A DNA stretch of 64,000 bases from the NCBI RefSeq assembly GCF_029203285.1, contig NZ_CP115669.1, positions 1,426,001 to 1,490,000 on the forward strand, given 5' to 3'. A program made the translations under genes and the position numbers. The notes beneath the pieces are model-generated. The model made no database searches, was not told the origin of the DNA, and saw nothing but the letters and a program-made list of their open reading frames with translations. Shown here piece after piece: positions 9,357 through 53,102 of the stretch. This DNA is from Pseudomonas sp. PSE14 (GTDB taxonomy: Bacteria > Pseudomonadota > Gammaproteobacteria > Pseudomonadales > Pseudomonadaceae). Each line of letters starts with the position of its first letter. The stretch's first letter is position 1.

Positions 9357-11450
9357 ATGAGCAAGACCCTCCACCACCGTGCGTGCCATTTGTGCGAGGC
9401 CATCTGCGGCCTGACCATCGAGACCGAAGACGAGCGCATCCTCTCGATCAAGGGCGATTCGCAGGACAGCTTCAGCCGTGGCCATGTCTGTCCCAAGGCC
9501 GTGGCGCTGCAGGACATCCAGAATGACCCGGACCGCCTGCGCCAGCCGGTTCGACGGGTCGGCAGCGAATGGCAACCGATCGGCTGGGACGAGGCTTTCG
9601 AACTCGTCGCCTCACGGCTGGCGGATATCCGTGAACGCCATGGCAACGACGCTGTCGCGGTGTACCAGGGCAATCCCAGCGTGCACAACTACGGGCTGAT
9701 GACCCACAGCAACTACTTCCTCGGCCAGTTGAAGACGCGCAACCGCTACTCGGCGACCTCGGTGGACCAGCTGCCGCACCACCTGGTCAGCCAGCAGATG
9801 TTCGGCCACGGCCTGCTGATCCCGATCCCGGACATCGACCAGACCGATTTCATGTTGATCCTCGGCGGCAACCCGCTGGCGTCCAACGGCAGCATCATGA
9901 CCGTGCCGGACGTGGAGAAGCGCCTGAAGGCCGTGAAGGCGCGCGGTGGCAAGCTCGTGGTGGTCGACCCCCGGCGCACGGAAACTGCCGCGATTGCCGA
10001 CCAGCACCTGTTCGTCCGTCCCGGCGAGGACGCCGCGTTGTTGCTGGGTATCCTCGACACGCTGTTCAGCGAAGGGCTGACCCGCGAGAGCCATCTGCCG
10101 GTGAGCGGCCTTGCGGCTGTGCGGGAGGCGCTGAAACCGTTCAAGGTCGAGGCGATGGCGAAGCGTTGCGGCGTGCCGGCCGAGGACATCCGCCAGCTGG
10201 CGCGGGACTTCGCCGTCGCCGACAAGGCTGTCTGCTACGGCCGCATGGGTGTTTCCACGCAGGTCTTCGGCAGTCTCTGCCAGTGGCTGGTGCAACTGAT
10301 CAACCTGCTGACCGGCAACCTCGACCGGGTCGGTGGCACCCTGTGCACCACTCCGGCGGTGGACCTGGTGGCGAGCACCTCCGGTGGCGCCTTCAACCGT
10401 TGGCAGAGCCGCGTCTCCGGCCTGCCGGAGTACGGCGGCGAGCTGCCGGTGGCGGCACTGGCCGAAGAAATGCTCACCGACGGCGACGGACAGGTCCGCG
10501 CGCTGGTGACGGTGGCGGGCAACCCGGTGCTCTCCACGCCCAACGGCCGGCGCCTGGAGCAGGCGCTGGACGGCCTGGAATTCATGCTCAGTGTCGATCT
10601 CTACATCAACGAGACCACCCGCTACGCCGACCTGATCCTGCCGCCCACCGCGCCGCTGGAGCACGATCACTACGACACCACCTTCAATATCTTCGCGGTG
10701 CGCAACGTCACGCGCTTCAACGAGGCGGTGCTGCCCAAGCCGCAGGGCGCGCTGCACGACTGGGAAATCTTCGTGGGGCTGGCCAAGGCATACGCCGCAC
10801 GCATGGGCAGCGAACTCAAACCGACCATGGCGCCGGAGCAGATGATCGAGATGGGCCTGCGTTTCGGCCCCTATGGCGATGCCTCCGAGCACAAGCTCAA
10901 CCTGGCGCGGTTGCGGGAACATCCCCACGGGCTGGACCTCGGCCCGCTGCAGCCCAACCTTGCGGCGCGCCTGAAAACCGCCAGCCGCCAGGTCGAAGCA
11001 GCGCCGGAGATCCTGCTGAAAGACCTGCGCCGCTTTGCCGACACCCAGGCGCCGGCAGCGGACCAGTTGCTGCTGATCGGCCGCCGCCATGTGCGCAGCA
11101 ACAATTCCTGGATGCACAACTATCACCGCCTGGTGAAGGGCAAGCCACGTCACCAGTTGCTCATGCACCCGCGGGACCTGGCGGCGCGCGGGCTGGCGGA
11201 CGGGCAGAAGGTGCGGGTGCGCTCGCGGGTCGGCAGCATCGAGATCGAGGTGGCGGCCAGCGACGAGGTAATGGCCGGCGTGGTCAGCCTGCCCCACGGC
11301 TGGGGGCACGGGCGGCCGGGTGTACAACTGTCGATTGCTCGCGAGCAGGGTGGGGCCAGCGCCAACGACCTGACCGACGAGCGCCATCTGGATGCGCTCT
11401 CCGGCAACACGGCGCTGAACGGCGTGCCCGTTGAGGTCGAGTCGGCCTGA
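9357..11450 (+). CDS. Molybdopterin-dependent oxidoreductase (DMSO reductase superfamily)
   Basis: A 697-residue molybdo-bisPGD enzyme. The N-terminal [4Fe-4S] motif reads CHLCEAICG...HVCPKA (residues 9-45). It is followed by the Mo-bisPGD core and a C-terminal molydopterin-dinucleotide binding domain from about residue 570 (NNSWMHNY, PHGWGHG). No twin-arginine signal is seen, so it is probably cytoplasmic. No FeS-subunit or membrane-anchor partner gene is adjacent, suggesting a stand-alone soluble oxidoreductase. The Mo-ligand residue is not an obvious Cys or Sec. I chose the ATG at 9357 because the family N-terminus starts there. Substrate unknown. Confidence 0.88.
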   Translation: MSKTLHHRACHLCEAICGLTIETEDERILSIKGDSQDSFSRGHVCPKAVALQDIQNDPDRLRQPVRRVGSEWQPIGWDEAFELVASRLADIRERHGNDAVAVYQGNPSVHNYGLMTHSNYFLGQLKTRNRYSATSVDQLPHHLVSQQMFGHGLLIPIPDIDQTDFMLILGGNPLASNGSIMTVPDVEKRLKAVKARGGKLVVVDPRRTETAAIADQHLFVRPGEDAALLLGILDTLFSEGLTRESHLPVSGLAAVREALKPFKVEAMAKRCGVPAEDIRQLARDFAVADKAVCYGRMGVSTQVFGSLCQWLVQLINLLTGNLDRVGGTLCTTPAVDLVASTSGGAFNRWQSRVSGLPEYGGELPVAALAEEMLTDGDGQVRALVTVAGNPVLSTPNGRRLEQALDGLEFMLSVDLYINETTRYADLILPPTAPLEHDHYDTTFNIFAVRNVTRFNEAVLPKPQGALHDWEIFVGLAKAYAARMGSELKPTMAPEQMIEMGLRFGPYGDASEHKLNLARLREHPHGLDLGPLQPNLAARLKTASRQVEAAPEILLKDLRRFADTQAPAADQLLLIGRRHVRSNNSWMHNYHRLVKGKPRHQLLMHPRDLAARGLADGQKVRVRSRVGSIEIEVAASDEVMAGVVSLPHGWGHGRPGVQLSIAREQGGASANDLTDERHLDALSGNTALNGVPVEVESA

Positions 11451-11582
11451 CAGGCTGTCGCAGTGCTCCTGCAAAGCCGAGCGTAGTGCTCGGCTTTGCA
11501 GTACAATGCGCGCAACCGTGCCGGCCAAACGCCGCCTGTGGCGATGCCGGGTCAGTATCTGATAGTTCAGCCGAGGAAGTTC

Positions 11583-11909
11583 ATGGATATCATCGATACC
11601 ATCAAAGAACAGATCGCCAACAACCCCGTCCTGCTGTACATGAAGGGCTCGCCGAACGCTCCGCAGTGCGGTTTCTCGGCCCGCGCTGCGCAGGTGCTGA
11701 TGGCATGCGGCGAGAAGTTCGCCTACGTCGACATCCTGCAGAACCCGGAAATCCGCGCCAACCTGCCCAAGTACGCCAACTGGCCGACCTTCCCGCAACT
11801 GTGGGTCGGCGGTGAGCTGGTCGGCGGCAGCGACATCCTGGTCGAGATGTTCGAAAAGGGCGAATTGCAGCCGCTGATCAAGGACGCCGTAGGCAAGGCC
11901 GACGCCTGA
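11583..11909 (+). CDS. grxD: Monothiol glutaredoxin (Grx4 type)
   Basis: A 108-residue monothiol glutaredoxin with the active site CGFS at C29. The glutathione-binding WPTFPQLWV and GGSDI segments are present. Grx4 proteins bind a [2Fe-2S] cluster as dimers or with BolA proteins and take part in iron-sulfur delivery and iron sensing. The start at 11583 gives the standard length; an AGGAAG RBS lies at 11573-11578. A strong terminator follows. Iron-handling bfrB and bfd lie 1.3-2.1 kb downstream. Confidence 0.95.
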   Translation: MDIIDTIKEQIANNPVLLYMKGSPNAPQCGFSARAAQVLMACGEKFAYVDILQNPEIRANLPKYANWPTFPQLWVGGELVGGSDILVEMFEKGELQPLIKDAVGKADA

Positions 11910-11927
11910 GTCTTTCGTGCTGTCGCA

Positions 11928-11957
11928 CAAAGCCCCGCTTCGGCGGGGCTTTGTTTT
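11928..11957 (+). terminator. Intrinsic terminator after grxD
   Basis: The stem CAAAGCCCCGC / GCGGGGCTTTG with a TTCG tetraloop is followed by a T-rich tract (TTTTTGG). Confidence 0.9.
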
Positions 11958-11970
11958 TGGGAAGAAATAA

Positions 11971-13134
11971 ATGACTGAGCAAACACGGACGAACGCTGCC
12001 CGCTGGGCCTGTGGATACTGCTTCGCCATGGGCGGGATGGTGCACGGCAGCGTGATGGGCCGGGTACCGGCCCTGAAGAGCATGACCGGGGTCGACGAGC
12101 AGGAGCTGGGCCAGGCATTGCTGGGCGCGGGCTTTGGCGCGCTGCTGGCGTTCGTCTTCGCCGGCGCCCTGGTGCGCCGTTACGGCAGCCGGGCGATCAC
12201 TGTCGTCTCCGGTCTGGCGCTGATGGCCAGCTTCCCGCTGCTGGGCCTGGCGCAGAACGTGTGGGAGCTGGCGGCGGGCTTTCTGGTGGTCGGCCTGACC
12301 TTCGCCACCATGGATGTGGCGATGAACACCCAGGCGGTGGAAGTGGAGCGGCGCCTCGGCCGGCCGTGTATTGCCAGCTTGCATGGCATGTACAGCCTGG
12401 GCGGGCTGGTCGGCGCGGTTGGCGCAGCGGCCTTCGCCGATCTGGCGCCTGTGTGGCATTTCACCCTGCTGGCGGCGATCGCGGTGGCCATACTGCCCTT
12501 TTTCGCCCGCAACCTGTTCGAAGGGCGCCCGGAGCCCATGGAGGAGGCGGCGCCAGCCCAACGTGGCTGGCGCCTGCCGCCACTGTCGCTGATCGGTCTT
12601 GGATTGCTGACGGCGTGCGCGTTCGTTTCCGAAGGGGCGGTCGCCGACTGGGGCGCGTTGCTGCTGCATCAGGTGATGGGCGCGTCCGAACGCCTGGCGG
12701 CACTGGGCTTCGCGGCGTTCTCCGCGACCATGGTGCTGGGACGGCTGTTCGGCGATCGCCTGCGTGTGCGATTCGCCGACGAGGCCTTGGTGCGCAACCT
12801 GGCGTTGCTGGCCATCGCGGGCATGTTGCTGGCGCTGTTCAGTCCCTGGGTAGCGAGTGCTATCGCCGGCTTCGCCCTGGTGGGCGTAGGCCTGTCGGTG
12901 GTGGTGCCGATCCTGATCGGGGCGGCGGGCAATCGGCCGGGCATCGAACCGTCCAAAGGCGTGGCGGCGGTGGCGGGGTTCGGTTACGGGGGCTTGCTGA
13001 TGGGGCCGCCGCTGATCGGCTTCCTCGCCGAGCACGTGGGGCTGCGCCTGTCATTGCTGGTGGTGGTGGGGCTGTGCGCCGGGCTGGTGCTCAAGGCGTC
13101 ACTGGTGCGGCGCCCGCCGAAGGCGAACGGCTAG
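11971..13134 (+). CDS. MFS transporter (YbjJ-like)
   Basis: A 387-residue major facilitator with about 12 hydrophobic segments. The inter-helix motif after TM2 reads GALVRRYGSR, and the second half shows FGDRLRVRFAD between TM8 and TM9. It resembles the YbjJ/fucose-permease-like branch; no substrate can be named. It starts just 14 bp after the grxD terminator. It converges on bfrB with a 48-bp gap. Confidence 0.8.
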   Translation: MTEQTRTNAARWACGYCFAMGGMVHGSVMGRVPALKSMTGVDEQELGQALLGAGFGALLAFVFAGALVRRYGSRAITVVSGLALMASFPLLGLAQNVWELAAGFLVVGLTFATMDVAMNTQAVEVERRLGRPCIASLHGMYSLGGLVGAVGAAAFADLAPVWHFTLLAAIAVAILPFFARNLFEGRPEPMEEAAPAQRGWRLPPLSLIGLGLLTACAFVSEGAVADWGALLLHQVMGASERLAALGFAAFSATMVLGRLFGDRLRVRFADEALVRNLALLAIAGMLLALFSPWVASAIAGFALVGVGLSVVVPILIGAAGNRPGIEPSKGVAAVAGFGYGGLLMGPPLIGFLAEHVGLRLSLLVVVGLCAGLVLKASLVRRPPKANG

Positions 13135-13182
13135 GAGGGAAGGGCACCGGCGTCCACAACCGCGCCGGTGCCTTTTCGTTGA

Positions 13183-13659
13183 TCAGTCGTCTTCGTGCAT
13201 GTGCGACTGCAGGTAGTTCTCCAGGCCGACCTTCTGGATCAGGCCCAGCTGGGTTTCCAGGTAATCGATGTGCTCTTCCTCGGACTCGAGGATGTTCTTG
13301 AGCAGGTCGCGGCTCACGTAGTCATGCACGCTTTCGCAATGCACGATGGCGTCGCGCAGGTCCTTGCAGGCCTTGAGTTCCAGGTTCAGGTCGCACTGCA
13401 GCATTTCCTGGGTGTTCTCGCCGATCAGCAGCTTGCCCAGGTCCTGCAGGTTGGGCAGGCCCTCGAGGAACAGGATGCGTTCGATGAGCTTGTCAGCGTG
13501 CTTCATCTCATCGATGGACTCATGGTACTCGTGCGCGCCGAGGCGTTTCAGGCCCCAGTCGTTCCACATGCGCGAGTGCAGGAAATATTGGTTGATGGCG
13601 ATCAGCTCGTTACCGAGGACCTTGTTCAAGTGCTGGATGACTTTCTTGTCGCCTTTCAT
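13183..13659 (-). CDS. bfrB: Bacterioferritin B
   Basis: A 158-residue haem-containing ferritin subunit, forming a 24-mer that stores iron as a ferric mineral. The haem-ligating methionine is M52 ([12 protein letters not shown]). Ferroxidase-type ligands are visible in [10 protein letters not shown] (E18), [13 protein letters not shown] (E51, H54), LNLELK and [11 protein letters not shown]. Length and context match P. aeruginosa BfrB. The partner ferredoxin bfd, which releases the stored iron, is encoded upstream on the same strand but is separated by a terminator and a promoter region, so the two are separately controlled. Confidence 0.96.
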
Positions 13660-13813
13660 GCCGGTGTCCTGCCGTGTGGAGTGGGAGAGACTGAAAGTGT
13701 GGTCCTCTTATAACTGACTGTCAAACATAAGTGCTTGAATTTGCTATAAAAAGGAATATGAATGCGAATGTTTTCATTCCGCAATTCGGCGTTAAAGCTC
13801 TGAATTTCAGGCA

Positions 13814-13843
13814 TAAAAAAACCGGGCATGGCCCGGTTTTTTT
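13814..13843. terminator. Bidirectional-looking terminator between bfd and bfrB
   Basis: The stem AAAAAAACCGGGC / GCCCGGTTTTTTT with an ATG loop. On the minus strand it lies 28 bp past the bfd stop, so it ends bfd transcription before bfrB. Confidence 0.9.
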
Positions 13844-13870
13844 CGGAATCTCTGCTGAGTTGGCCGTCGA

Positions 13871-14086
13871 TCAGCTTGCCGCGTAGGCGAGGGAGTAGTT
13901 CATCGACTGCGCGCTCTGCAGTTCGCCCAGGGTCTCGCGGACGACCTGCTTGGCGAGGCAGGCGCACTTGCCGCACTGGGTGCCGACACCGGTGCTTTCA
14001 CGCACTTCGCGGTAATTGCAGCAGCCTTCGTAGATCGCATCGCGGATCTGGGTATCGGTGACACCTTGGCAGAGGCAGACGTACAT
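13871..14086 (-). CDS. bfd: Bacterioferritin-associated ferredoxin
   Basis: A 71-residue [2Fe-2S] protein that docks on BfrB and donates electrons through its haem to mobilise stored iron. The four cluster cysteines sit in the Bfd pattern: C4 and C6 (MYVCLCQGV), then C38 and C41 in TQCGKCACL. A Fur-like box lies 45-63 bp before the start codon, consistent with induction when iron is scarce, as known for Pseudomonas bfd. Confidence 0.96.
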   Translation of the reverse strand: MYVCLCQGVTDTQIRDAIYEGCCNYREVRESTGVGTQCGKCACLAKQVVRETLGELQSAQSMNYSLAYAAS

Positions 14087-14130
14087 GGTTGCACTAGCAT
14101 CGCTGTGGGGTTGTTGGAGGCGATACTAAT

Positions 14131-14149
14131 CTTAATGAGAATGATTGTC
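14131..14149. promoter_or_regulatory. Putative Fur box upstream of bfd
   Basis: The 19-mer CTTAATGAGAATGATTGTC matches the Fur consensus GATAATGATAATCATTATC at 14 of 19 positions by eye. It lies in the bfd promoter region. Iron-dependent repression of bfd by Fur is established in P. aeruginosa, which supports the call. Confidence 0.75.
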
Positions 14150-14363
14150 AAAGTTTGCTGGGCAGGCTTTCCCATGACCAGATAAATGGTCATGTCCGTC
14201 AATGGCTTAGCCTTGTGGGGCGATGGGGCAAAGCGCTGGGCGCCTCGGAAAACGGCGGTGTATCATGACCGGCCCACTGGAGTGGATAACCCGCCGATCC
14301 GGCTTTTCGAGCCAGGCAGGGCATCTTGCACTCCCTCACGTCCTCACCCGAAGGAGACATGGA

Positions 14364-14966
14364 ATGAGCGTACTCGTAGGTAAGAAAGCTCCCGACTTCA
14401 ACGTAGCCGCCGTCCTCGGTAGCGGCGAAATCGTCGACAGCTTCGTGCTGTCCGAAGCCATCAAGGGCAAGTACGGCCTGGTGTTCTTCTACCCGCTGGA
14501 CTTCACCTTCGTCTGCCCGTCCGAGCTGATCGCCCTGGACCGTCGCATCCCTGAGTTCCAGGCGCGCAACGTCGAAGTGATCGGCGTGTCCATCGACTCC
14601 CATTTCACCCACAACGCCTGGCGTAACACCCCGGTGGACAAGGGCGGCATCGGCCCGGTCAAGTACACCCTGGCCGCCGACATCACCCACGAGATCGCCA
14701 AGGCCTATGACGTCGAGTCCGCCGACGGTGTCGCGTTCCGTGGTGCCTTCCTGATCGACCAGAATGGCGTGGTGCGTTCGCAGATCGTCAACGACCTGCC
14801 GCTGGGCCGCAACATGGACGAGCTGCTGCGTCTGGTCGATGCCCTGCAGTTCACCGAAGAACACGGCGAAGTCTGCCCGGCCAACTGGAAGAAAGGCGAC
14901 AGCGGCATGACCGCATCGCCGGAAGGCGTTGCCGCCTACCTGGCCCAGCATGCCAGCAAGCTGTAA
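14364..14966 (+). CDS. 2-Cys peroxiredoxin (AhpC/Prx1 type)
   Basis: A 200-residue thiol peroxidase that reduces H2O2 and organic hydroperoxides. The peroxidatic cysteine is C51 (DFTFVCPSE) and the resolving cysteine is in GEVCPANW near residue 172. The YF-type C-terminal tail is only partly present (YLAQHAS). I chose the ATG at 14364 because it follows a strong RBS (AAGGAGA, 14351-14357) and gives the family N-terminus; the upstream open frame is untranslated leader. It is divergent from bfd, so iron release and peroxide defence are neighbours. Two terminators follow. Confidence 0.93.
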   Translation: MSVLVGKKAPDFNVAAVLGSGEIVDSFVLSEAIKGKYGLVFFYPLDFTFVCPSELIALDRRIPEFQARNVEVIGVSIDSHFTHNAWRNTPVDKGGIGPVKYTLAADITHEIAKAYDVESADGVAFRGAFLIDQNGVVRSQIVNDLPLGRNMDELLRLVDALQFTEEHGEVCPANWKKGDSGMTASPEGVAAYLAQHASKL

Positions 14967-14981
14967 GGCTGTCCGGTGATG

Positions 14982-15010
14982 AAAGAGCCCCGCTTCGGCG
15001 GGGCTTTTTC
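14982..15010 (+). terminator. Terminator after peroxiredoxin
   Basis: The stem AGCCCCGC-TTCG-GCGGGGCT is followed by TTTTTC, 16 bp past the stop codon. Confidence 0.9.
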
Positions 15011-15068
15011 ATGGGCGCGCAGGATTGCTTTTCGTAGGAAGCCGGCAAGCCCTGCGTGCAGGAAAGAA

Positions 15069-15092
15069 AAAGCCCCGCCTGAGCGGGGCTTT
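15069..15092 (-). terminator. Terminator after rnt
   Basis: The stem AAAGCCCCGC / GCGGGGCTTT. On the minus strand it is 24 bp beyond the rnt stop and leads into a T-rich run (complement of GGAAAGAAAA). Confidence 0.85.
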
Positions 15093-15115
15093 GTCATGGG
15101 ATCAGGAAGAGAGGA

Positions 15116-15796
15116 TCAGTCCTCGTCTTCCATCCAGCCGCCGAATTCCTTCCAGCGGTTGACGATGCCGCAGAACAGCTCGGCGGTTTTCTCGGTGTCG
15201 TAGCGTGCCGAGTGCGCCTCGCGGTTGTCGAACTCGATGCCGGCGGTCTGGCAGGCCTTGGCCAGTACGGTCTGGCCGTAGGCGAGGCCGGCAAGGGTCG
15301 CGGTGTCGAAGCTGGAGAAGGGGTGGAACGGATTGCGCTTCACGCCACTGCGGTTTACTGCGGCGTTGAGGAAGCCCAGGTCGAAGCTGCTGTTGTGGCC
15401 AACCAGGATCGCCCGTTTGCAGCCGTTGGACTTCAGCGACTTGCGCACGCCCCGGAAGATCTCGGTCAGCGCCTGTTCTTCCGGCACGGCCATGCGCAGC
15501 GGGTGGTCCAGCTTGATGCCGGTGAACTCCAGCGCAGCCTGCTCGATGTTGGCGCCTTCGAAAGGCTCCACGCGGAAGAAGTAGGTGTGCTCGGGGAACA
15601 GGTAGCCGCTCTCATCCATGCCGATAGTGACGGCGGCGATTTCCAGCAGGGCGTCGGTGCCGGCGTTGAAGCCGCCGGTCTCGACGTCCACCACGACCGG
15701 CAGGTAGCCACGGAAACGGCGTGCCATCGGGTGGCGCGGGCCAGGCGGGAAGGAACCGTCGAGTTCTTCCTCGAAGATTTCGTTCTCGTCACTCAT
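15116..15796 (-). CDS. rnt: Ribonuclease T
   Basis: A 226-residue DEDDh-family 3'-5' exonuclease that trims tRNA and other stable RNA 3' ends. Exo I is VVDVETGG (D37, E39), Exo II is [12 protein letters not shown], and Exo III is [12 protein letters not shown] with the catalytic His before the Asp. The start overlaps the pyrC stop in an ATGA arrangement, so the two are translationally coupled. Confidence 0.96.
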
Positions 15797-39437: not shown

Positions 39438-41977
39438 TTACTTGCCCGGTACCAGTGTCAGACGCTTCACACCGTAGACCTTGTCCAGGTTCTGCGACTG
39501 GAAGGGGAAGCTCATGTAGTTGCCCTTCAGCCAGGCATCGATGCCGTCGGCGTAGTGCGGGCTGGCCGGATTGCCGGACTGGCCGCTGCTGTTGAGGCCC
39601 ATCATCGGCTCGCTCTGGCCGAAGTCGACGACGATGCGCATGGCCGGGATCAGCCAGGTGTCGAAGTCCTGGCCCCAGTGGTAGGCGGCGACGTTCAGCG
39701 TGGTGTGGTCGCCGCCGGCTGGGTAGGGGCCACGGTCCAGGTAGCCCTTGATCGCACCCAGGCTGGCGCGCTCGCTGGCGCTCAGGTTCGGCGCCATCTT
39801 GGTGCTGTCGCTGACCCACTCGTAGGTGTGCAGCTTGCCCCACTGCCAGGCGCGGCGGTCGCTGCCCATCTTCTGTTCGCAGAAGGTCGTGGCGGCGGCC
39901 AGGCTGCGGGCGAGGATCGCCGGCTTGTCTTCCTTCTGCGGGGTGCGGGTGTCATCCCAGAACGGACTGTCGTCGCGGCCCAGCAGGTGGTCGGCCTGGG
40001 CCGAATAGGACAGGTTGGCGTTCTCCACGAAGGCCTTCCAGGAGGGGCTGTCTTCCGGGCCGAGTTCGTCGAGGAAGATTTGCTTGCTGCTTTCCTGCAG
40101 GAAGGCTTCGTACAGGGCCGCATCCGAGGATGTCGCGGCCAGCTTGCCGTCGAACGCCATGATGCGGTCGAGCGCTTCGCGGGCGCGGGCTCGCTGGTCA
40201 TCGGGCAGCGCGTCGATGGCCTTCTTCAGCGGCTGCGCCATGCCCGGTGCGTCCAGCATCGACTGCAGCTTGCCGGCAAAGGGCGTGGTCTGGTCGTACT
40301 GCATGGCGATCATGCTGCGGTAGTCGTGGCTCTTGCTGGCGCCGGCGAGCTGGGCGATGCGCTCGTAGCGCTCCGGGTAGTACCAGGAGCTGGACAGCTG
40401 GGCGCCGTAACCGGGCTGCACGCTGCGGTGGTTGGCGGTGCCCAGCCAGCCTTGCATCGGGTCCTGGTCGGACGGATGCAGGATCGGATCGGCGTAGCCG
40501 TCCCAGTCGTAGCGGCCGTCCCAGCCGGGGAGGGCAGCAGGCCGCGACCTTCCTTGCGGTTGGGGAAGCGCCCGGTGACCTGCCAGCCAATGTGCTTCTC
40601 GTCGGCGAACAGGATGTTCAGCGCCATCGCGCGGACGTCGCGGGTGGCGTCGAATGCCTGCTCGACGCTCTTGGCGCGGGACAGGTCGAAGAAGGCATCG
40701 AGGGTGCGGTCGGACTCGCCCTGGATGCTCTGGTAGGCGATGCCATAGCCGCTGGACAGCGGCAGCGGTTGCAGGTCGTGCTTGCGCTCGCCCAGGGCGC
40801 TGTTGAGCAGCGGGCCGTGGCGGGTCTCGTAGATGGTCTCGCGGACCGGGCTCTGGCCCTTGATGAAGAAGGTCTCGTTGCGCTCGATGGCCGGCTTCCA
40901 CTGGCCGTCGGCGAGGTAGTAGAGCTTGCTGCCCTGACGCTTCACCTGTTCCAGGAACAGGTCCTGGTTGTCGCCCATGACCATGGTCATGCCCCAGGCC
41001 AGCTTGCCGTTGAAGCCAGCCACCACGCCCGGTACGCCGGCGATGGAAACACCGGCGGCGCTGAATTTTGGCGAGCGGATCTGCACGTAGTTCCACACCG
41101 AGGGCATGGACAACGGCAGGTGGGTGTCGTTGGCCAGGAGGCTCTTGCCGCTGCGGCTGCGCTGCGGGGCGATGGCCCAGTTGTTGGAGGCGGCAACGCC
41201 CATCATCTGTAGTGCGGCGATCTGGCCGGCGGCGCGGTCCAGGGCGTCGAGGCCGGCGATTTTCCCTTCCAGGCGCAGGCCCTTGAGCTTCTCGGCCTCT
41301 TCGAAGGGCAGCGGCTCGTCGGGATAGATCGGCGTCAGCCAGGGCAGTTTGTCGGCACCGACCTTCTGCGCCAGTACCAGGGAGGCGATTTCTTCCTGCA
41401 GGTTCACCGCCAGGCCGAAGTTCAGCAGGCTGAAGACCAGCGCGGAGTCTTCCGGCTTCCAGTACTCAGGACGGTAGCCGGACTCGGCCAGGTCCATCGG
41501 CAGCTTGTCGCGGTAGCGGAACAGGTAGGCGTTGACGCCGCGCGCGTAGGTCTCGAAGAAGCGCTTGATGCGCGGCGAGGAGCCGGCATAAAGGGCATCA
41601 GCGGCTTTCTTCAGGTTCACCGTGCGCATGAAACGGTCGGTTTCCAGCGCGCCGGGGCCGACCATTTCCGACAGGCGCCCCTGGGCCATCAGACGCAGGC
41701 CGACCATCTGGCTGATGCGGTCGCTGGCGTGCACATAGCCCAGGGTGAACAGCGCGTCGTGGAAGTTGCTGCTCTCGATCAGCGGCATCCCTAAGCTGTT
41801 GCGGCGGATCGATACGTTGTCCGCCAGGCCCTTGATCGGCTGCACGCCGCTGGTCGGCGTCACGCTGTCGGCGTAGTGGTCGTTCAGCCAGCTCTGGCAG
41901 CCGGCGAGGCTGACGGCGGCGCTGAGGGTGGCGGCAAGGCCGAAGCTGGGAAGCCGGCGGAAGGCTCGCGGGGCCAT
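39438..41977 (-). pseudogene. quiP: Acyl-homoserine lactone acylase QuiP, frameshifted
   Basis: A penicillin-acylase family Ntn-hydrolase. Its signal peptide ends in LAGC (C27), and the nucleophile serine is S264 in [11 protein letters not shown], where autocleavage would separate the alpha and beta chains. The frame breaks in the G4 run at 40527-40530: coding ends after [10 protein letters not shown] and resumes one base away at [14 protein letters not shown]. Adding one base gives 846 residues, almost exactly QuiP (847 in P. aeruginosa as I recall). Flanking genes match the PA1032-PA1045 neighbourhood. QuiP degrades long-chain acyl-homoserine lactones. The lesion is either real or a homopolymer sequencing error. 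Confidence 0.88.
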
Positions 41978-44312: not shown

Positions 44313-44786
44313 TCATTCGATCCAGGGGCCACAGCATTTCTTCAGCTTGCCGCCGGCGCCACAGGGGCAGGGATCGTTGCGCCCCAGCTTCATTGGCACG
44401 GTTGGATCGAGGAAATACCAGCGGCCCTCGCGCTGGACGAAGCCCGAGCACTCGCGGTGGCTATGCTCGCCGTTGCTGTCGTGCCAGCGGGCGACGAAGG
44501 TGACCCGCGCGTGCTCGGGCTGACCGCCGAGCACCTCATGGCTCTCCACCTCCAGGCCGAGCCAGGTGCTGCCCAGGCTCCAGGCGCGAATGGCGTCCAG
44601 GTCCAGGCCCTGCTGCTGGGCCGGCAGGGTGGTGTCGCGCAGGTAATCCACCAGGCCCAGCGCATAGGCGCTGTAGCGCGAGCGCATCAGGGCTTCGGCG
44701 GTGGGGGCGGCAACGCCGGCATGGAAGCGTCCGCAGCACTCGGTCAGCGGACGGCCGCTACCGCAGGGGCAGGTCGGTTCGATCAT
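44313..44786 (-). CDS. YchJ family SEC-C protein (UPF0225)
   Basis: A 157-residue protein with an N-terminal Cys motif ([14 protein letters not shown]), a central conserved domain ([18 protein letters not shown]), an NTF2-like body and a C-terminal SEC-C motif ([19 protein letters not shown]). It likely binds zinc at both ends. I chose the ATG at 44786. It begins 2 bp after a stop that matches the end of the DUF6231 gene, so in the ancestral arrangement the two genes were coupled. Confidence 0.92.
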
Positions 44787-44788
44787 GG

Positions 44789-44872
44789 TCACCACCAGTA
44801 CTTGCCGAAGTTTTCCGGGTTGGCCCAGAACTGGGACACAGGTGGCTGCAGGCCAAGCGTCGCGGGCTTCAT
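44789..44872 (-). CDS. 27-residue remnant open frame ending in the DUF6231 C-terminus
   Basis: An ATG at 44870-44872, preceded by a GAGGA RBS on the minus strand, opens a 27-codon frame. Its last 14 residues ([14 protein letters not shown]) match the C-terminus of the DUF6231 protein encoded at 47892-48380, except the first. The frame stops 2 bp before the ychJ start. It appears to be the old 3' end of that gene left behind by the island insertion, now with a new start. It is short and may not be translated. Confidence 0.45.
44791..44832. repeat. 42-bp direct repeat, island left end
   Basis: A perfect 42-bp match to 47894-47935, same orientation. It lies in the 3' end of the DUF6231 coding sequence (copy next to ychJ). 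The two copies bracket the lysP/lrp island. Confidence 0.95.
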
Positions 44873-45129
44873 GGCGGTCCTCAAAGTGTTCTGGCGACAC
44901 GAAGGTTACACCATCGGTGCCGGTTCGCGAGGAGCACAAGGGACTCGGAGGGCCGTCCGGGGTAATTCATCCCGTGTGAGCTTTCGAGATCGCTTCGCGA
45001 TGGGAGCGCTGTAGCCAGAAGTGTCGATGGAACCAGTCCGCAAGGCATGGCCGGCAGAATATGGTCAGAAGCAGTTGTATTGGTAAGGGGGCGGTTTTGT
45101 AAAGCTATTTACAATTCCGAAGAAGCAGA

Positions 45130-45591
45130 TCAAAGAGGATGTCCGCGATCAATTTTACTGCTAAGGATAATGGAAGTGGTGGTCTTTGCAACGCCTTCTA
45201 GACTTCCAATTTGATCTAAAATTTGATCAAGGCGCTCAGGCGAGTTTGCACGTAACCAGGCAACATAGTCGAACTCGCCGCTAACAGCACACAGTTGTTC
45301 TACCTCTGACATTGCACTTAGTCGCTTTACAACATCCTTTCCTGATCGCGAGTGGACGGTGATCCCGACGTAAGCTTGTAAACCACCATCCAGCAACTGC
45401 TGCCCTAGGCGAACTCCATATCCAGTGATGATTTTGGCACTTTCAAGTTTGGATAGCCGCGAGTTAACAGTTGTGCGGGCGATGCCTAGATTTCGGGCAA
45501 GGACAGCCACGGTTTCACGGGCATTTATCTTCAGGGCTGCAATGAGCTGAAGATCAATCTCATCAAGGGTGGCCGGACGCAATTCGGACAT
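45130..45591 (-). CDS. Lrp/AsnC family transcriptional regulator
   Basis: A 153-residue regulator. The N-terminal helix-turn-helix is at residues 9-60 (LDEIDLQLIAALKINARET, NLGIARTTVNSRLSKLESA). The C-terminal RAM ligand-binding domain (about 70-145) contains AYVGITVHSRSG and VSGEFDYVAWLR. Family members sense amino acids and usually act on an adjacent transport or catabolic gene; the adjacent same-strand lysP is the likely target. Codon usage is less GC-rich than in neighbouring genes. Confidence 0.92.
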   Translation of the reverse strand: MSELRPATLDEIDLQLIAALKINARETVAVLARNLGIARTTVNSRLSKLESAKIITGYGVRLGQQLLDGGLQAYVGITVHSRSGKDVVKRLSAMSEVEQLCAVSGEFDYVAWLRANSPERLDQILDQIGSLEGVAKTTTSIILSSKIDRGHPL

Positions 45592-45774
45592 GGGCGGTCA
45601 GTCTCATGTTTGAAGAATACACGGGTATGTATTGTCTTTGCCGGTTACGTTTGATTCTTGAGTCTATATGGAAATATTGGTGTGCTGCGCAGTGGATGTT
45701 GAATTGCTGTCTGGGCGCTGCTGCGATCAGGTGACACAGCGCCCAGGTTTTCGTCAGTATTGGCGCTTGGCAAT

Positions 45775-47271
45775 CTAGCGATGGCTTAGCTGTAGATGTG
45801 CTTGTAAGGGGAGGGGTTCGTCTATCCGATTCCCCTCTATATCCATTTCATTATAACTTACCAGTCGAGTGCCGTGCTTGATTCGATAACCAATCCAGAC
45901 TGCAAGGAATAGTGGGAGGCTAACATAGGTTGCTACGAGACCACTCCAGTCGATATGCTCGCCGATGAATGCGCTATAATTTTGGCCAAGAACAATTATC
46001 ATGCAGAGGCTAAAGGCAAACAGCGGGCCAAATGGGAAGAGGGTGGCTCGGTAAGGTAGTTCTTCTAAGCGTCCTCCTTGAGCAAGGAATCCTTTTCGAA
46101 AGCGATAATGAGAGACGGCAATCCCCAACCATGCAATGAATCCGCACATGCCCGAAGTGTTGAGTAGTGCGTTATATATGAATTTGTCGCCAAATACGGA
46201 AGTCAGGAAGCACAGTGCGCCGATCAATGTGGTTGCATAAAGTGCATTGCGCGGCACCCCGTTGCGCGAGATTTTAGAGAAAATCTTAGGCGCTTTACCC
46301 TGCTCGGCAAGACTATGGAGCATGCGGGTGGATGCATACATCCCCGAGTTACCTGCCGAGAGAATGGCGGTTAGGATGACGGCGTTCATCAGCGCAGCCG
46401 CTGATGCAAAACCGGCACGTTCGAAAAGCAATGTGAATGGGGAGACGCTAATGTCCGTTGTTTCGTTGCGTAATAGACTTGGGTCAGTGTATGGAATCAT
46501 TGCTCCAATCACAAAGATTGCAAGAATATAGAATAACGTGATGCGCCAGAATACTTGGCGGACAGCAATAGGTACGTTTTTACTGGGATTTTTGGATTCT
46601 GCTGCCGCAACGCCTACGATTTCCGTGCCTTGAAACGAGAAGCCGGCAATCATTACAACTCCAACCAAGGCTTGGAATCCGCCTGCGAACGGTGCGTCGC
46701 CAGTTGTGAAGTTTTTAAATCCGGGTGATTCTATTCCGTGCATCAATCCAAAAATAGTGGCTAATCCTATGATGATGAATACAATTACCACTAAGACTTT
46801 AATCAATGCGAACCAGAACTCGCTTTCACCAAAGCAACGTACTGAGACGAAATTTAGCAAGAATATTATTGCCAGGAAAGCGCCGCTCCAATAAATTCCT
46901 GGAGTGTCGGGGAACCAGAACTCCATAACTAGCTGGGCGGCTACAAGTTCGGCGGCGATAGTCACGGCCCAGTTAAACCAATAGTTCCAGCCTAGTGCAA
47001 ATCCGAAGCCGCTCTCAACAAATTTGCTTCCGTAAGTGCTAAATGAGCCGGCGACAGGCATGTACGCGGCCATTTCGCCAAGACTGGTCATCAGGAAGTA
47101 AACCATTACCCCGATCAGTGCGTACGCTAGGAGTGTTCCCCCGGGACCCGAACTGGCAATGGAAGCGCCTGTTGCTACAAATAGCCCAGTGCCAATTGAG
47201 CCACCTATGGCGATCATGTTTAGGTGGCGTGTTGATAGTGTTCGTTTCAGGGTGTTTTCTGGTGTGCTCAT
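45775..47271 (-). CDS. lysP: Lysine-specific permease (APC superfamily)
   Basis: A 498-residue amino-acid:H+ symporter with about 12 transmembrane segments. From memory it is clearly similar to E. coli LysP over its length. Shared stretches include HLNMIAIGGSIGTGLFVA at the start, VYFLMTSLGEMAAYMPV, FSFQGTEIVGVAA, ILSAGNSGMYASTRML and CGFIAWLGIAVSHYRFRKGF. The related AAT-family gene would import lysine. Its base composition is clearly AT-richer than the window, with many A/T-ending codons. It is on the same strand as the Lrp regulator, 183 bp upstream of it in transcription order. Confidence 0.93.
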   Translation of the reverse strand: MSTPENTLKRTLSTRHLNMIAIGGSIGTGLFVATGASIASSGPGGTLLAYALIGVMVYFLMTSLGEMAAYMPVAGSFSTYGSKFVESGFGFALGWNYWFNWAVTIAAELVAAQLVMEFWFPDTPGIYWSGAFLAIIFLLNFVSVRCFGESEFWFALIKVLVVIVFIIIGLATIFGLMHGIESPGFKNFTTGDAPFAGGFQALVGVVMIAGFSFQGTEIVGVAAAESKNPSKNVPIAVRQVFWRITLFYILAIFVIGAMIPYTDPSLLRNETTDISVSPFTLLFERAGFASAAALMNAVILTAILSAGNSGMYASTRMLHSLAEQGKAPKIFSKISRNGVPRNALYATTLIGALCFLTSVFGDKFIYNALLNTSGMCGFIAWLGIAVSHYRFRKGFLAQGGRLEELPYRATLFPFGPLFAFSLCMIIVLGQNYSAFIGEHIDWSGLVATYVSLPLFLAVWIGYRIKHGTRLVSYNEMDIEGNRIDEPLPLQAHLQLSHR

Positions 47272-47891
47272 TTTCCCGTCTCCTGCTTCAGGTAGTCAGG
47301 ATCGGGTTTTGGTTTAATACTTAACTTTGGTGTGGTCATTATTAAACTTCATTTTTGGATTTATTATAATTCCGCCTGTGCCGGGAAGGCGGCGGGTGCA
47401 TGTAAGGCAATGAGCTATTTAGGCTACCGCTGGCATGCAGTACACCATCAAATCAGGCTCACCTAATGAATTCTAAAATTGGTAGGGTTCATAAAGAAGA
47501 CGCAATATGCAGCGTTTTGACGCGATTTTCGTCATTTTGATGATAGCGTTGATCATAATGACAAGGTTTCCCTGGTCGCGTAGCCATATCCAGGCCCCAC
47601 GATAAGGCCCATCACGAGGTGCCATGAGCAGTCAGCGTTACTCCGAAGATGACCTTGGAGAACGGCATTGCGGTCGGCCTATTGGTGGAGCGGAGGGAGA
47701 GCGTGAAGCTGCGCGAGGAGCAGCCCGAGGGCGGGCCCTGAGGTAGTAGATTCCTGAGCGGCGGTAGTGCCAAACCGACAGTCTTTGCCGGGGCTGGTGA
47801 CAGTGTTGGTTACAGGCTGGTGACCCTTGGCCCTGCCCGGGCATGGCGTTGAGGTCGGTCATGATGAGGTAAGCCCTTGATGTTCATGGGT

Positions 47892-48380
47892 TTACCACCA
47901 GTACTTGCCGAAGTTTTCCGGGTTGGCCCAGAACTTGGCATTGAGCCAGTCCGGGACCTGCTTGTATTCGTGCAGATCGTAGGTGAACAGGGTGAGCACC
48001 TGCGAGTCGCGCTGGAAGCGTTCGCTGGCCTGCATGGCCAGCGCATAGAAGTCGGTGTCCTGTGCCTGCGCGGCGTCGAGGTCGACCAGCACGGCGACCT
48101 TGCTGCTGTTGAGGTTGCGGATGCCCCCCACCAACTGCTGCGCCTCGCGCCGTGGCAGATGCTCCAGGCAGTCGGCGAGCAGTGCCAGGTCATAACGCTG
48201 CGCGGCGATGTCCGCCGGCAGCGTGCCGGCGGGGGCGTGAAACAGTTCGCAATCCGGATGCGCCGCGCAGAAGGCGTCCACCGCCGGGATCTGGCTGGCG
48301 CCCACCAGCAGAAGACGCTGCGGTGCGTAGCGGTCGAGCAGGGCGGCAAGGGCTTGTTGCGGCGTGCGTGATGAGATCAT
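47892..48380 (-). CDS. DUF6231 family protein
   Basis: A 162-residue protein conserved in Pseudomonas beside ychJ. It has a methyltransferase-like topology, with a first strand RLLLVGAS, a second acidic turn, and LALLADCLEHLPRREAQQL resembling the post-IV region of class I methyltransferases. A complete SAM-binding glycine motif is not evident, so activity is uncertain. Its last 13 codons lie in the 42-bp repeat. It ends in TAA here, whereas the displaced copy by ychJ ends in TGA. Confidence 0.8.
   Translation of the reverse strand: MISSRTPQQALAALLDRYAPQRLLLVGASQIPAVDAFCAAHPDCELFHAPAGTLPADIAAQRYDLALLADCLEHLPRREAQQLVGGIRNLNSSKVAVLVDLDAAQAQDTDFYALAMQASERFQRDSQVLTLFTYDLHEYKQVPDWLNAKFWANPENFGKYWW
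47894..47935. repeat. 42-bp direct repeat, island right end
   Basis: Perfect copy of 44791-44832, in the last codons of the intact DUF6231 gene. Confidence 0.95.
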
Positions 48381-50958: not shown

Positions 50959-53102
50959 ATGCTCAGCACCGAACTCAAGGCCACGATCCAGGGCGCCTAC
51001 TCGCGCTTCCTCGAGGCCAAGGAACTCAAGCCGCGCTACGGCCAGCGCCTGATGATCGCCGAAGTGGCCAAGGTCCTCGGCACCATCTCCAGCGACGAGG
51101 AAGGCCATCGCCTGGGCGACGCCGCCGTGGTCGCCGTGGAAGCCGGCACCGGCACCGGCAAGACCGTCGCCTACAGCCTGGCCGCCATCGCCTGCGCCAA
51201 GGCCGCCGGCAAGCGCCTGGTCGTCGCCACCGCCACCGTCGCCCTGCAGGAGCAGATCGTCCACAAGGACCTGCCCGACCTGCTGCGCAACAGCGGTCTT
51301 TCCTTCAGCTTCGCCCTGGCCAAGGGGCGCGGGCGCTACATGTGCCTGTCCAAGCTCGACCATTTGCTGCAGGAAGGCCAGGCGCAGAGCGCCACCGCCC
51401 AGCTGTTCGAGGAGGAAGGCTTCCGTCTCGACGTGGACGAGACGTCGAGCAAGCTGTTCAACCAGATGATCGAGCGCCTGGCCGGCAACCGCTGGGATGG
51501 CGACCGCGACTCCTGGCCCGAGGCCATCGAGGACGCGCACTGGTCGCAGGTCACTACCGACCACAGCCAGTGCACCAACCGTCATTGCCCGAACTTCCAG
51601 CAGTGCGCCTTCTACAAGGCGCGCGAAGGCATGACCAAGGTCGACGTGATCGTCACCAACCATGACCTGGTGCTGGCGGACCTGGCCCTGGGCGGTGGGG
51701 CGATCCTGCCGGACCCGCGCGACACCCTCTACGTGTTCGACGAAGGCCATCACCTGCCAGACAAGGCCATCGGCCACTTCGCCCACTTCACCCGCCTGCG
51801 CGCCACCGCCGACTGGCTGGCCCAGGTGGACAAGAACCTCACCAAGCTGTTGGCGCAGAACCCGCTGCCGGGCGACCTCGGCCGCCTGATCGAGCAGGTG
51901 CCGGAGCTGGCCCGCGAACTGCGGACGCACCAGCAGTTCATGTTCACCGCCTGCGAGGAGATCGGCGATTTCCGCGCCGGCGAGGACATGGAAGGCCGCG
52001 AGCGGCCGCGCCATCGCTTCGAGGGTGGGGTGATCCCCGAGCACATCCGCGAGATGGGCATCGAACTGAAGAAGGGCTTCTCCAAGCTCACCGACCTTTT
52101 CACCCGCCTCACCGAATTGCTCAAGGAGGCAATGGACGGGGAGGGCAGCATTGGCATCGCCAGCTACCAGGCCGAAGAGTGGTACCCGCTGTTCGGCAGC
52201 CTGCTGTCCCGCGCCCAGGGCAACTGGGAGCTGTGGACCGCCTTCACCTGCGAGGACCCGGAAGACAGCCCGCCCATGGCGCGCTGGCTGACCCTGGCCG
52301 AGAGCGGCACCTTCTATGACATCGAGGCCAACGCCAGCCCGATCCTTGCCGCCGAGACCTTGCGCCGCAACCTGTGGAACGTCGCCTACGGCGTGCTGGT
52401 GACTTCGGCGACCCTGACCGCGCTGGGCACCTTCGACCGCTACCGCATGCGCGCCGGCCTGCCGCGCTCGGCGGTCACCGCGGTGGTGCCGAGCCCGTTC
52501 CACCACGCTGATGCCGGCGTGCTGCGGGTACCCGACCTCAAGGCCGACCCGCGCGACGCTGCCGCCCATACCGCCGCGATCATCCGCGAGTTGCCGGCGA
52601 TGGTCGAAGGCTCGCGCGGGTCGCTGATCCTTTTCGCCTCGCGCAAGCAGATGCAGGAAGTCTTCGACGGTCTCGAGCGTGACTGGCGCAAGCGCGTGCT
52701 GATCCAGGGCAACCTGTCCAAGCAGGAGACCCTGAACAAACACCGATCCCGCGTCGACGACGGCGAGCCGAGCGTACTGTTCGGCTTGGCCAGCTTCGCC
52801 GAGGGCGTGGATTTGCCGGGCGCCTACTGTGAACACGTGGTGATCGCCAGATTCCCTTCGCCGTGCCGGACGACCCAGTGGAAGCGGCGTTGTCGGAATG
52901 GATCGAGGCGCGTGGCGGTAATCCCTTCATGGAAATCGCCGTGCCCGACGCTTCGCTGCGCCTGGTCCAGGCCTGCGGCCGCCTGCTGCGTACCGAGCAG
53001 GATCGCGGCACCATCACGCTGCTCGACCGCCGCGTGGTGACGCAACGCTACGGCAAGGCCATCCTTAATGCGCTGCCCCCGTTCCGCCGCGAAATCGCCT
53101 GA
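50959..53102 (+). pseudogene. dinG: ATP-dependent DNA helicase DinG, frameshifted
   Basis: An XPD-like Fe-S superfamily 2 helicase (5'-3'). Walker A is GTGTGKT at residues 63-69, the [4Fe-4S] ligands are in RYMCLSKL and CTNRHCPNFQQC, and the DEAH-like box is FDEGHH. One base is missing near 52849 (reads GCCAGATTC; GCCAAGATTC would keep the frame) at about codon 630. The original frame then gives non-homologous sequence to 53040. The true C-terminus, with helicase motif VI QACGRLLRTEQDRG, is in the next frame and ends at 53102. With one base restored the protein is 714 residues, a normal DinG length. Confidence 0.88.

Follow-up and report, generated by a model that had tools for sequence, protein, structure and literature searches.

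A lysP-lrp islet in Pseudomonas as a probable remnant of an integrative island at the 3' end of the DUF6231 gene

We analyzed a 64,000-nucleotide stretch of the genome of Pseudomonas sp. PSE14 (NZ_CP115669.1, positions 1,426,001 to 1,490,000; hereafter, the window, with coordinates counted from its first nucleotide, and G000 for the genome). An islet in this window that carries a lysine permease gene and a regulator gene is very probably what remains, old and no longer mobile, of a small integrative island that inserted at the 3' end of the DUF6231 gene. All features described below are on the minus strand, except for an inverted repeat, to which no strand is assigned.

The insertion site and its repeats

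The islet separates the target gene, encoding a DUF6231 protein (47892..48380; PF19742, E 9.7e-51) and with its frame restored after the insertion, from ychJ (44313..44786; PF17775 and PF02810), its former immediate neighbour judging by empty sites. We take these two genes to correspond to PA1040 and PA1039, respectively, from a neighbouring match to the 'PA1041 family'. The first-pass annotation placed the insertion at the 3' end of DUF6231 and predicted that the two genes had been 2 bp apart before it. Both proposals held: in the empty sites of G015 and G019, the DUF6231 stop codon TGA is followed by CC and then by the ychJ ATG. The site is empty in 23 of the 24 other genomes of the genus, G022 alone carrying the same islet, and in 76 of 80 named Pseudomonas loci, where for both counts ychJ was found via an overlapping frame of the query and adjacency was seen on the DNA at the displayed sites. 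As also noted in the first pass, the GC content of the cargo genes lysP and lrp (0.488 and 0.489; GC3 0.503 and 0.429, respectively) is lower than that of the flanking DUF6231 (0.654) and ychJ (0.690); the value for the whole window is 0.650.

The islet is bounded by two identical 42-bp copies in direct orientation, exactly as first described: copy A (47894..47935) forms the present DUF6231 3' end, with the stop codon TAA, and copy B (44791..44832), with the stop codon TGA, is the displaced native 3' end beside ychJ, the start-to-start distance being 3,103 bp. A 100-bp query from copy B found no third place for the repeat in the 5.98-Mb genome (E <= 0.001). The tail of copy B and the ychJ leader are the same as in the empty site of G019. 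The earlier comparison of the two copies to an attL/attR pair stands, but in the family the recombination core is not the 42 bp. Among 13 occupied sites (11 integrase-bearing elements, G000 and G022), the run shared by A and B is 10-22 bp in 11, including 12 bp in G022, which has the same islet, and reaches 42-43 bp in G000 and G146 only. In all 13 sites, the shared run contains GTTCTGGGC (47926..47934 in copy A), the putative crossover core. As the shared run is short in most sites and every site has GTTCTGGGC, what remains of the 42 bp is mostly a gene-restoring tail.

In the same 11 sites, A and B differ at 3-9 of the 36 gene-tail bases, one copy being native and the other element-like. In G000 and G146, A equals B across the whole tail, which leaves the exchange point there without a right-hand bound; a native-like tail in copy A of these genomes requires either subsequent gene conversion or a donor whose tail was identical. 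Copy B agrees with the native tail and the ychJ leader in relatives that have the empty site, most clearly in G000, G322, G478 and G628, in a comparison with 128 empty tails (loci L005-L137 minus L037, L058, L071, L098 and L099; some genomes are represented twice). In G093 and G120, the best match among the 128 tails is just 72% and 67% alike upstream, respectively, so that the assignment of native and element sequence is less certain there.

An integrase relic and related integrase-bearing elements

The statement in the first-pass annotation that the islet lacks an integrase has to be revised. Directly after DUF6231, at the end expected for an integrase, lies a frameshifted and truncated relic of a tyrosine integrase (47645..47862) that retains codons 1-74 of about 494 and matches the integrase of locus L157 with 74% and 59% identity (tblastn, E 4e-19, database of 9 regions); the earlier suggestion of a remnant is supported. 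The L157 integrase contains the catalytic domain PF00589 (E 3.6e-12) and weakly matches solved chains named Integrase (E 8e-4). Residues R337, H434, R437, H460 and Y470 (L157 numbering), which are invariant in the family and presumably catalytic, are outside the remaining relic. No integrase of this family was detected elsewhere in the window genome at E 1e-40, with 3 of the 12 first-look candidates scored.

Eleven related integrases (at least 63% identity; one interrupted) all start 29-30 bp past the DUF6231 stop codon, and all 11 sites have two gene-end copies, an arrangement found for none of 23 looser integrase relatives (loci of about 1.5 kb on each side). The G478 match has one internal stop, and its ORF ends at 486 aa, close to where the related proteins have their C-terminus. 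All 13 insertions are at DUF6231. In the islet, both copies contain GTTCTGGGC and the gene end is restored, and both ends align with those of all 11 integrase-bearing elements; missing is an integrase with its catalytic part 29-30 bp past the stop codon. We file the islet as a putative decayed derivative, not an active member, of the DUF6231-site integrase islands.

In blastn comparisons, the proximal islet end, copy A included, aligns with 7 elements over 317-323 bp at 78.6-81.3% identity, and the distal end, copy B included, with the same 7 elements over 109-153 bp at 75-86%. The homology stops at about 47645 on the proximal side and about 44910 on the distal side. The distal element end (44833..44910), alignable in all 11 elements, retains one arm-type site within one mismatch (44892-44899). 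Repeats of TGTCACCA, which look like arm sites, are present at both element ends, partly within the integrase's own first codons, and a motif search located three arm-type sites (GGTCACCA, TGTAACCA and TGTCACCA) inside the relic (47795..47825). A motif derived from an alignment of the same ends that were then counted yielded 74 matches at 26 ends, compared to 3.2 in shuffled sequences, none of the matches being reversed. The 11 integrase-bearing elements have 67 such sites at their 22 ends (mean 6.1, the number per end not always being three). Within one mismatch, 3+1 sites are left in G000 and 1+2 in G022.

The cargo of the integrase-bearing elements includes SIR2, TIR and PDC-M68 genes and others, several of unknown function; some of this cargo, in other Pseudomonas, resembles phage defences. 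Neither lysP nor lrp was detected in any of the 11 elements at E 1e-3, so that the islet cargo may have arrived once the element had decayed, or may have taken the place of what the element first carried. Comparison of 10 element proteins with PHROGs identified an integrase, a transcription regulator, an anti-repressor, an RNase H, an invertase and one internal virion protein (of the head-and-packaging category), with four proteins left without a match; none of the 10 was recognised as the product of a packaging gene. No close relative of the integrase was found in phage records (40 records, best identity 45.1%) or plasmids (18 records; the one with at least 80% coverage at 33.5%), and none of 8 stretches in viral contigs was confirmed. 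Thus, the family seems to be chromosomal in these collections.

A model for insertion and decay

We infer that a tyrosine integrase catalysed recombination between two copies of GTTCTGGGC, or of a slightly longer stretch, one close to the DUF6231 3' end and the other on a circular form of the element. The element would have supplied its own version of the last ~10 DUF6231 codons (copy A), so that the C-terminus was preserved, and the displaced native end would have been left beside ychJ (copy B). The TGTCACCA arm-type repeats at both ends, the proximal ones located in the first codons of the integrase, would have served as binding sites that kept the complex assembled. Subsequently, the integrase probably lost everything beyond codon 74 and the arm sites decayed, while lysP and lrp were retained by selection despite the chromosome's own lysP.

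The cargo genes

The islet lysP (45775..47271), a second lysine permease gene besides that of the chromosome, is predicted to encode a permease that is of the LysP type along almost all of its sequence: it scores 814.7 bits with NF008094 (cut-off 735), matches AA_permease (PF00324) and matches 9eyd, 'Lysine-specific permease', over residues 9-479 (E 1.5e-256). The product of lrp (45130..45591; PF01037 and PF13404) reaches 70.7 bits with the LysM-type profile NF040947, below the cut-off of 180, and is thus assigned to the Lrp/AsnC family only. These are the only ORFs of at least 100 aa wholly between the copies. Both genes are under purifying selection, with dN/dS between G000 and G022 of 0.061 for lysP and 0.072 for lrp.

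The two genes are not paired at any of 28 other lysP loci (about 1.5 kb on each side), around the native lysP (L219) or at any of 4 other Lrp loci. An inverted repeat upstream of lysP, GTCATTTTGAT-N10-ATCATAATGAC (47531..47562), with both arms unchanged in G022, is a candidate operator, and the Lrp-type regulator may control the islet lysP. Promoter and terminator scans gave no excess over shuffled sequences. Among plasmid records, 67 match the islet DNA in part, none exceeding 80% of the query; in the best 10 of the 67, the match lies within the lysP portion. An IS scar suspected by eye at the inner joint was rejected: in a search of the own genome, the 421 bp concerned yielded, beyond themselves, only 25- and 22-bp matches.

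Age and alternative origins of the islet

Recent acquisition, considered in the first-pass annotation, is not clearly indicated, as the islet is 92.9% identical between G000 and G022 and the chromosomal flank 92.2%. In a four-species tree from 27,688 flank columns, 267, 259 and 226 sites favour the three splits, respectively, and three genes likewise fail to settle the species tree; one gain followed by a loss in G019 is therefore indistinguishable from a gain in G000 and G022 only.

A possible, though doubtful, course of events is that the element decayed in place first and that lysP-lrp later replaced its middle, from about integrase codon 75 to 44910, never having moved with it. The limits of element homology coincide with this interval, the 11 relatives lack both cargo genes, and the two genes are unpaired at the other loci surveyed. 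However, the 421 bp upstream of lysP have no other copy in the genome (22-25-bp matches only), which gives no sign of repeat-mediated replacement, and variable cargo at this place is normal for the family. It is unlikely that the islet is still mobile in trans through the integrase of a related element: both cores are kept, and G000 and G022 have 4 and 3 arm-type sites within one mismatch, respectively, but these are fewer than in the integrase-bearing elements, the search of the window genome described above did not find such an integrase, and G000 and G022 have diverged as would be expected after long residence.

We consider it highly improbable that an unrelated duplication, or an insertion of lysP-lrp by homologous recombination, copied the DUF6231 end with no site-specific element involved. 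The same integrase search and the presence of just two ORFs of at least 100 aa between the copies would agree with such an event, but the islet shares the relic, the distal end and the arm-type repeats with 11 integrase-bearing elements that occupy the corresponding position in DUF6231. Target-site duplications of a transposon would also leave cargo between direct repeats, but this origin is scarcely credible for copies that, with tail differences in 11 of 13 sites, are unlike a fresh duplication and that enclose lysP and lrp, which are not transposases.

Comparison with known islands

The islet, a probable decayed integrative island, and its relatives can be compared with several described systems. 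The IntY islands of Pseudomonas, located downstream of the tmRNA gene between 14-bp direct repeats and shown to be excised and transferred by a jumbo phage, similarly have a tyrosine integrase adjoining the target, direct repeats and putative phage-defence cargo, and the passages available report no autonomous-transfer genes for them (PMC12595487). They differ in the target, which is DUF6231 in all 13 sites here, in carrying alpA and sharing a region of about 18 kb at their 3' end, and in their experimental support, the elements described here being known from sequence alone. The available parts of PMC4482086 describe dusA-associated islands, in which an integrase clade is likewise tied to one protein-coding gene and the element supplies replacement gene sequence; the integrase is described as their sole universal feature, and excision was shown by PCR. 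Those islands occupy the 5' end of dusA, in contrast to the 3' end of DUF6231 for the present family.

P4-like satellites and P2-like phages that contain defence hotspots are also small mobile elements with exchangeable defence genes, as described in the accessible text of PMC9122126; a difference is that, apart from the one match to an internal virion protein, PHROGs revealed no packaging gene among the 10 proteins of the DUF6231-site elements. The core defence hotspots cDHS1 and cDHS2 of P. aeruginosa share a fixed chromosomal place with varied defence cargo but differ in their flanking genes, among them one for a tRNA or tmRNA, and are not tied to one type of element; neither PA1039 nor PA1040 appears in the accessible text (PMC10250203). 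Titles, the beginnings of abstracts and some passages of papers on related islands contained no description of the DUF6231-site family. Literature searches for DUF6231 in Pseudomonas, for islands with ychJ and an integrase, and for PA1040 with an integrase found nothing, and that for lysP with Lrp found nothing relevant.

The balance tips slightly towards a broader proposal, in which the DUF6231 3' end would be a hitherto undescribed docking site, across Pseudomonadaceae, of small islands that belong to one clade and whose cargo is interchangeable and in part defensive, the N-terminal codons of the integrase would double as arm sites bound by the enzyme itself, and islands could become immobile and turn into metabolic loci, in this case a spare importer of lysine together with a regulator of its own. 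That arm-type sites overlap integrase codons can be tested directly. The window islet probably represents a late stage, with the integrase lost, the attachment arms eroding and the cargo kept by selection. The landing site is defined by a core of ~9-10 bp in a conserved gene plus a matching integrase, so that two short searches suffice to locate islands at DUF6231 in Pseudomonas genomes, and several of these elements, with genes of unknown function next to SIR2, TIR and PDC-M68 genes, are candidates for new defence systems.

Occupied and empty DUF6231 sites

In the genome of Pseudomonas sp. PSE14 (G000; 5.98 Mb, a single contig), lysP and an Lrp-type regulator gene (lrp) are located between two identical 42-bp direct repeats, copy B (44791-44832), which touches the ychJ start, and copy A (47894-47935), at the end of the DUF6231 gene. 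The perfect, same-orientation pair reported in the first-pass annotation was thus confirmed, and a search of the whole genome found no further place for the repeat. The closest named records for the DUF6231 protein in the scan are from Pseudomonas sp. 30_B (98%), followed by P. nitroreducens and kin (92-93%).

Comparison of the DUF6231-ychJ junction across 25 genus genomes (PSE14 included) showed that the two genes directly adjoin each other in 23, and that the islet is present in two, PSE14 and G022. The empty junction in G015 and G019 reads TGA-CC-ATG, exactly the 2-bp gap previously guessed for the state before insertion. Of 80 named loci retained from a broader scan, 76 are empty, the exceptions being those of G022 (L058), G181 (L071) and G146 (L098), and L099. 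The latter (Pseudomonas sp. AKS31) carries a different island (10649-15356), about 160 bp past DUF6231, with three consecutive ORFs that appear recombinase-like by eye; ychJ was not found within the 10 kb examined.

The DUF6231-end pattern was matched in 299 of 398 family genomes, eight of which contain two copies: PSE14, G022, and G093, G120, G146, G181, G322 and G368, the last six with elements whose integrase starts 29 bp past the DUF6231 stop. When the integrase of an element at this site (L157) was used as the query (E 1e-40), matches were detected in 40 of 396 family genomes; the integrases with at least 63% identity, in seven genomes, are all encoded beside DUF6231, as are none of the 23 looser relatives with an examined locus. 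This search added G153, whose copy A differs from the pattern at three positions. A further search (E 1e-150), of 398 genomes from the genus to which G368 belongs, matched nine, including the new G457, G478, G536 and G628, all four with two DUF6231-end copies. The resulting 13 occupied sites comprise 11 integrase-bearing elements, with a copy-to-copy span of 6.4-8.6 kb, and two lysP islets (3.1 kb). In G120 (L153), a transposase-like gene, by eye of the IS3 type, splits the integrase gene into parts matching residues 1-388 and 383-489. In G153, a second integrase-like gene (L218:7987-9309; 50% identity over residues 166-490) directly follows the first.

No description of the DUF6231 site as an island site was found among the literature matches listed; the islands may be known under another name.

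An integrase relic in the islet

The islet had been described as lacking an integrase, which did not hold: tblastn with the L157 integrase detected, immediately past DUF6231, residues 1-42 in one frame (47862-47740) and residues 46-74 in another (47731-47645). The same relic, additionally with a stop, is present in G022. Both islet ends match all seven elements compared at the DNA level, the proximal end over ~320 bp, including copy A, and the distal end over 109-153 bp, including copy B. From ~47645 to 44910, a region consisting of lrp, lysP and their upstream regions, the comparison found no substantial match to the other elements.

Frame changes occur in two other genes of the window, both named by eye. 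An acylase-like gene (39441-41950, minus strand; related to an 813-aa protein in L230) is in two frames, split near 40527, but three relatives (L238, L239, L240) match it in a single frame, reflecting either a recent frameshift or a sequencing error. A DinG-like helicase gene (50959-53099, plus strand) changes frame near 52850, and its matches in three relatives (L241, L242, L243) each stay in one frame.

Probable exchange point and restoration of the gene end

Compared with 128 tails of empty relatives, copy B corresponds to the native gene end and retains the native ychJ leader, and copy A is native on the left and element-like on the right, encoding EMFGKYWW in 7 of 13 sites, where the native end is ENFGKYWW or QNFGKYWW. 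The exact run shared by the two copies is 10-22 bp in 11 sites; its right limit is set by G322 (TGGGCC vs TGGGCT) and its left limit by G146, G536 and G022. Because of these limits, and because GTTCTGGGC is common to the shared runs of all 13 sites, the exchange most likely occurs within about 9-10 bp, and the element restores the DUF6231 gene end.

Copies A and B show no difference along the entire tail in PSE14 (42 bp) and G146 (43 bp), but in G022, which shares the PSE14 islet, 6 of 36 tail bases differ. Later gene conversion may account for the native-like copy A tail of PSE14; a donor carrying that tail would explain it equally well. Hence the perfect 42-bp match does not mark the recombination core. 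The proposed attL/attR-like pair stands, but not in its 42-bp extent.

Arm-type repeats

With at most one mismatch, TGTCACCA occurs 35 times in the proximal 110 bp and 39 times in the distal 110 bp across the 13 elements; dinucleotide shuffles predict 3.2. As the motif was taken from the same alignment, these counts speak to strength and position and not to an independent motif. None of the matches is reversed, and nearly all are at fixed places, about +66, +77 and +89 past the stop and -95, -83 and -72 before copy B, with four additional matches at -23. By analogy with the usual layout of such systems, these repeats would be putative integrase-binding arm sites. Such repeats number 67 in the 11 integrase-bearing elements (mean 6.1), and the relic islets retain four (PSE14) and three (G022).

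The proximal sites fall in integrase codons 13-23 (...SPACHQPCHQ...), where the G628 integrase lacks four residues, equal to one repeat length, and has one arm-type site fewer. Among the looser integrases, the five nearest (50-54%) align from residue 31 only. Alignments of the more distant ones mostly start at residues 24-34, in some cases at 8-19, and for three (L173-L175) at residue 1 (tblastn), so that this N-terminal stretch is largely, though not entirely, specific to the DUF6231 clade.

Cargo and age of the islet

PADLOC was searched with ten cargo candidates from the other elements, and PHROGs with ten additional proteins. These scans recognized a SIR2-domain protein (G628), a TIR-TM protein (G536), a PDC-M68B-like protein with a weakly matching partner (G181), anti-repressor- and transcription-regulator-like proteins, an invertase, RNase H and an internal virion protein. 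Six of the ten PADLOC queries had no match, including the second integrase-like gene of G153. Low-GC cargo genes without a PADLOC match (441-681 aa; L157:6883-8928, L152:7676-9220, L154:7623-8948) are candidates for novel defence systems.

The cargo in the window consists of lysP (solved relative 9eyd, a lysine-specific permease) and the Lrp/AsnC regulator; neither gene was found in the 11 integrase-bearing elements. The pair may have moved together with the element or may have taken the place of its middle part at a later time. A native lysP elsewhere in the PSE14 genome is 73% identical to the islet gene (GC 0.639 vs 0.488), and a non-islet lysP is present in 23 of 25 genus genomes (E 1e-120). 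An inverted repeat at 47531-47562, with arms unchanged in G022, is a candidate operator through which Lrp might regulate lysP.

Between PSE14 and G022, dN/dS is 0.061 for lysP and 0.072 for lrp, within the 0.016-0.118 spanned by six neighbouring genes, while the integrase decayed. Because islet identity between these genomes (92.9%) resembles that of the flanks (92.2%), the islet probably dates back to about the time when the two species split.
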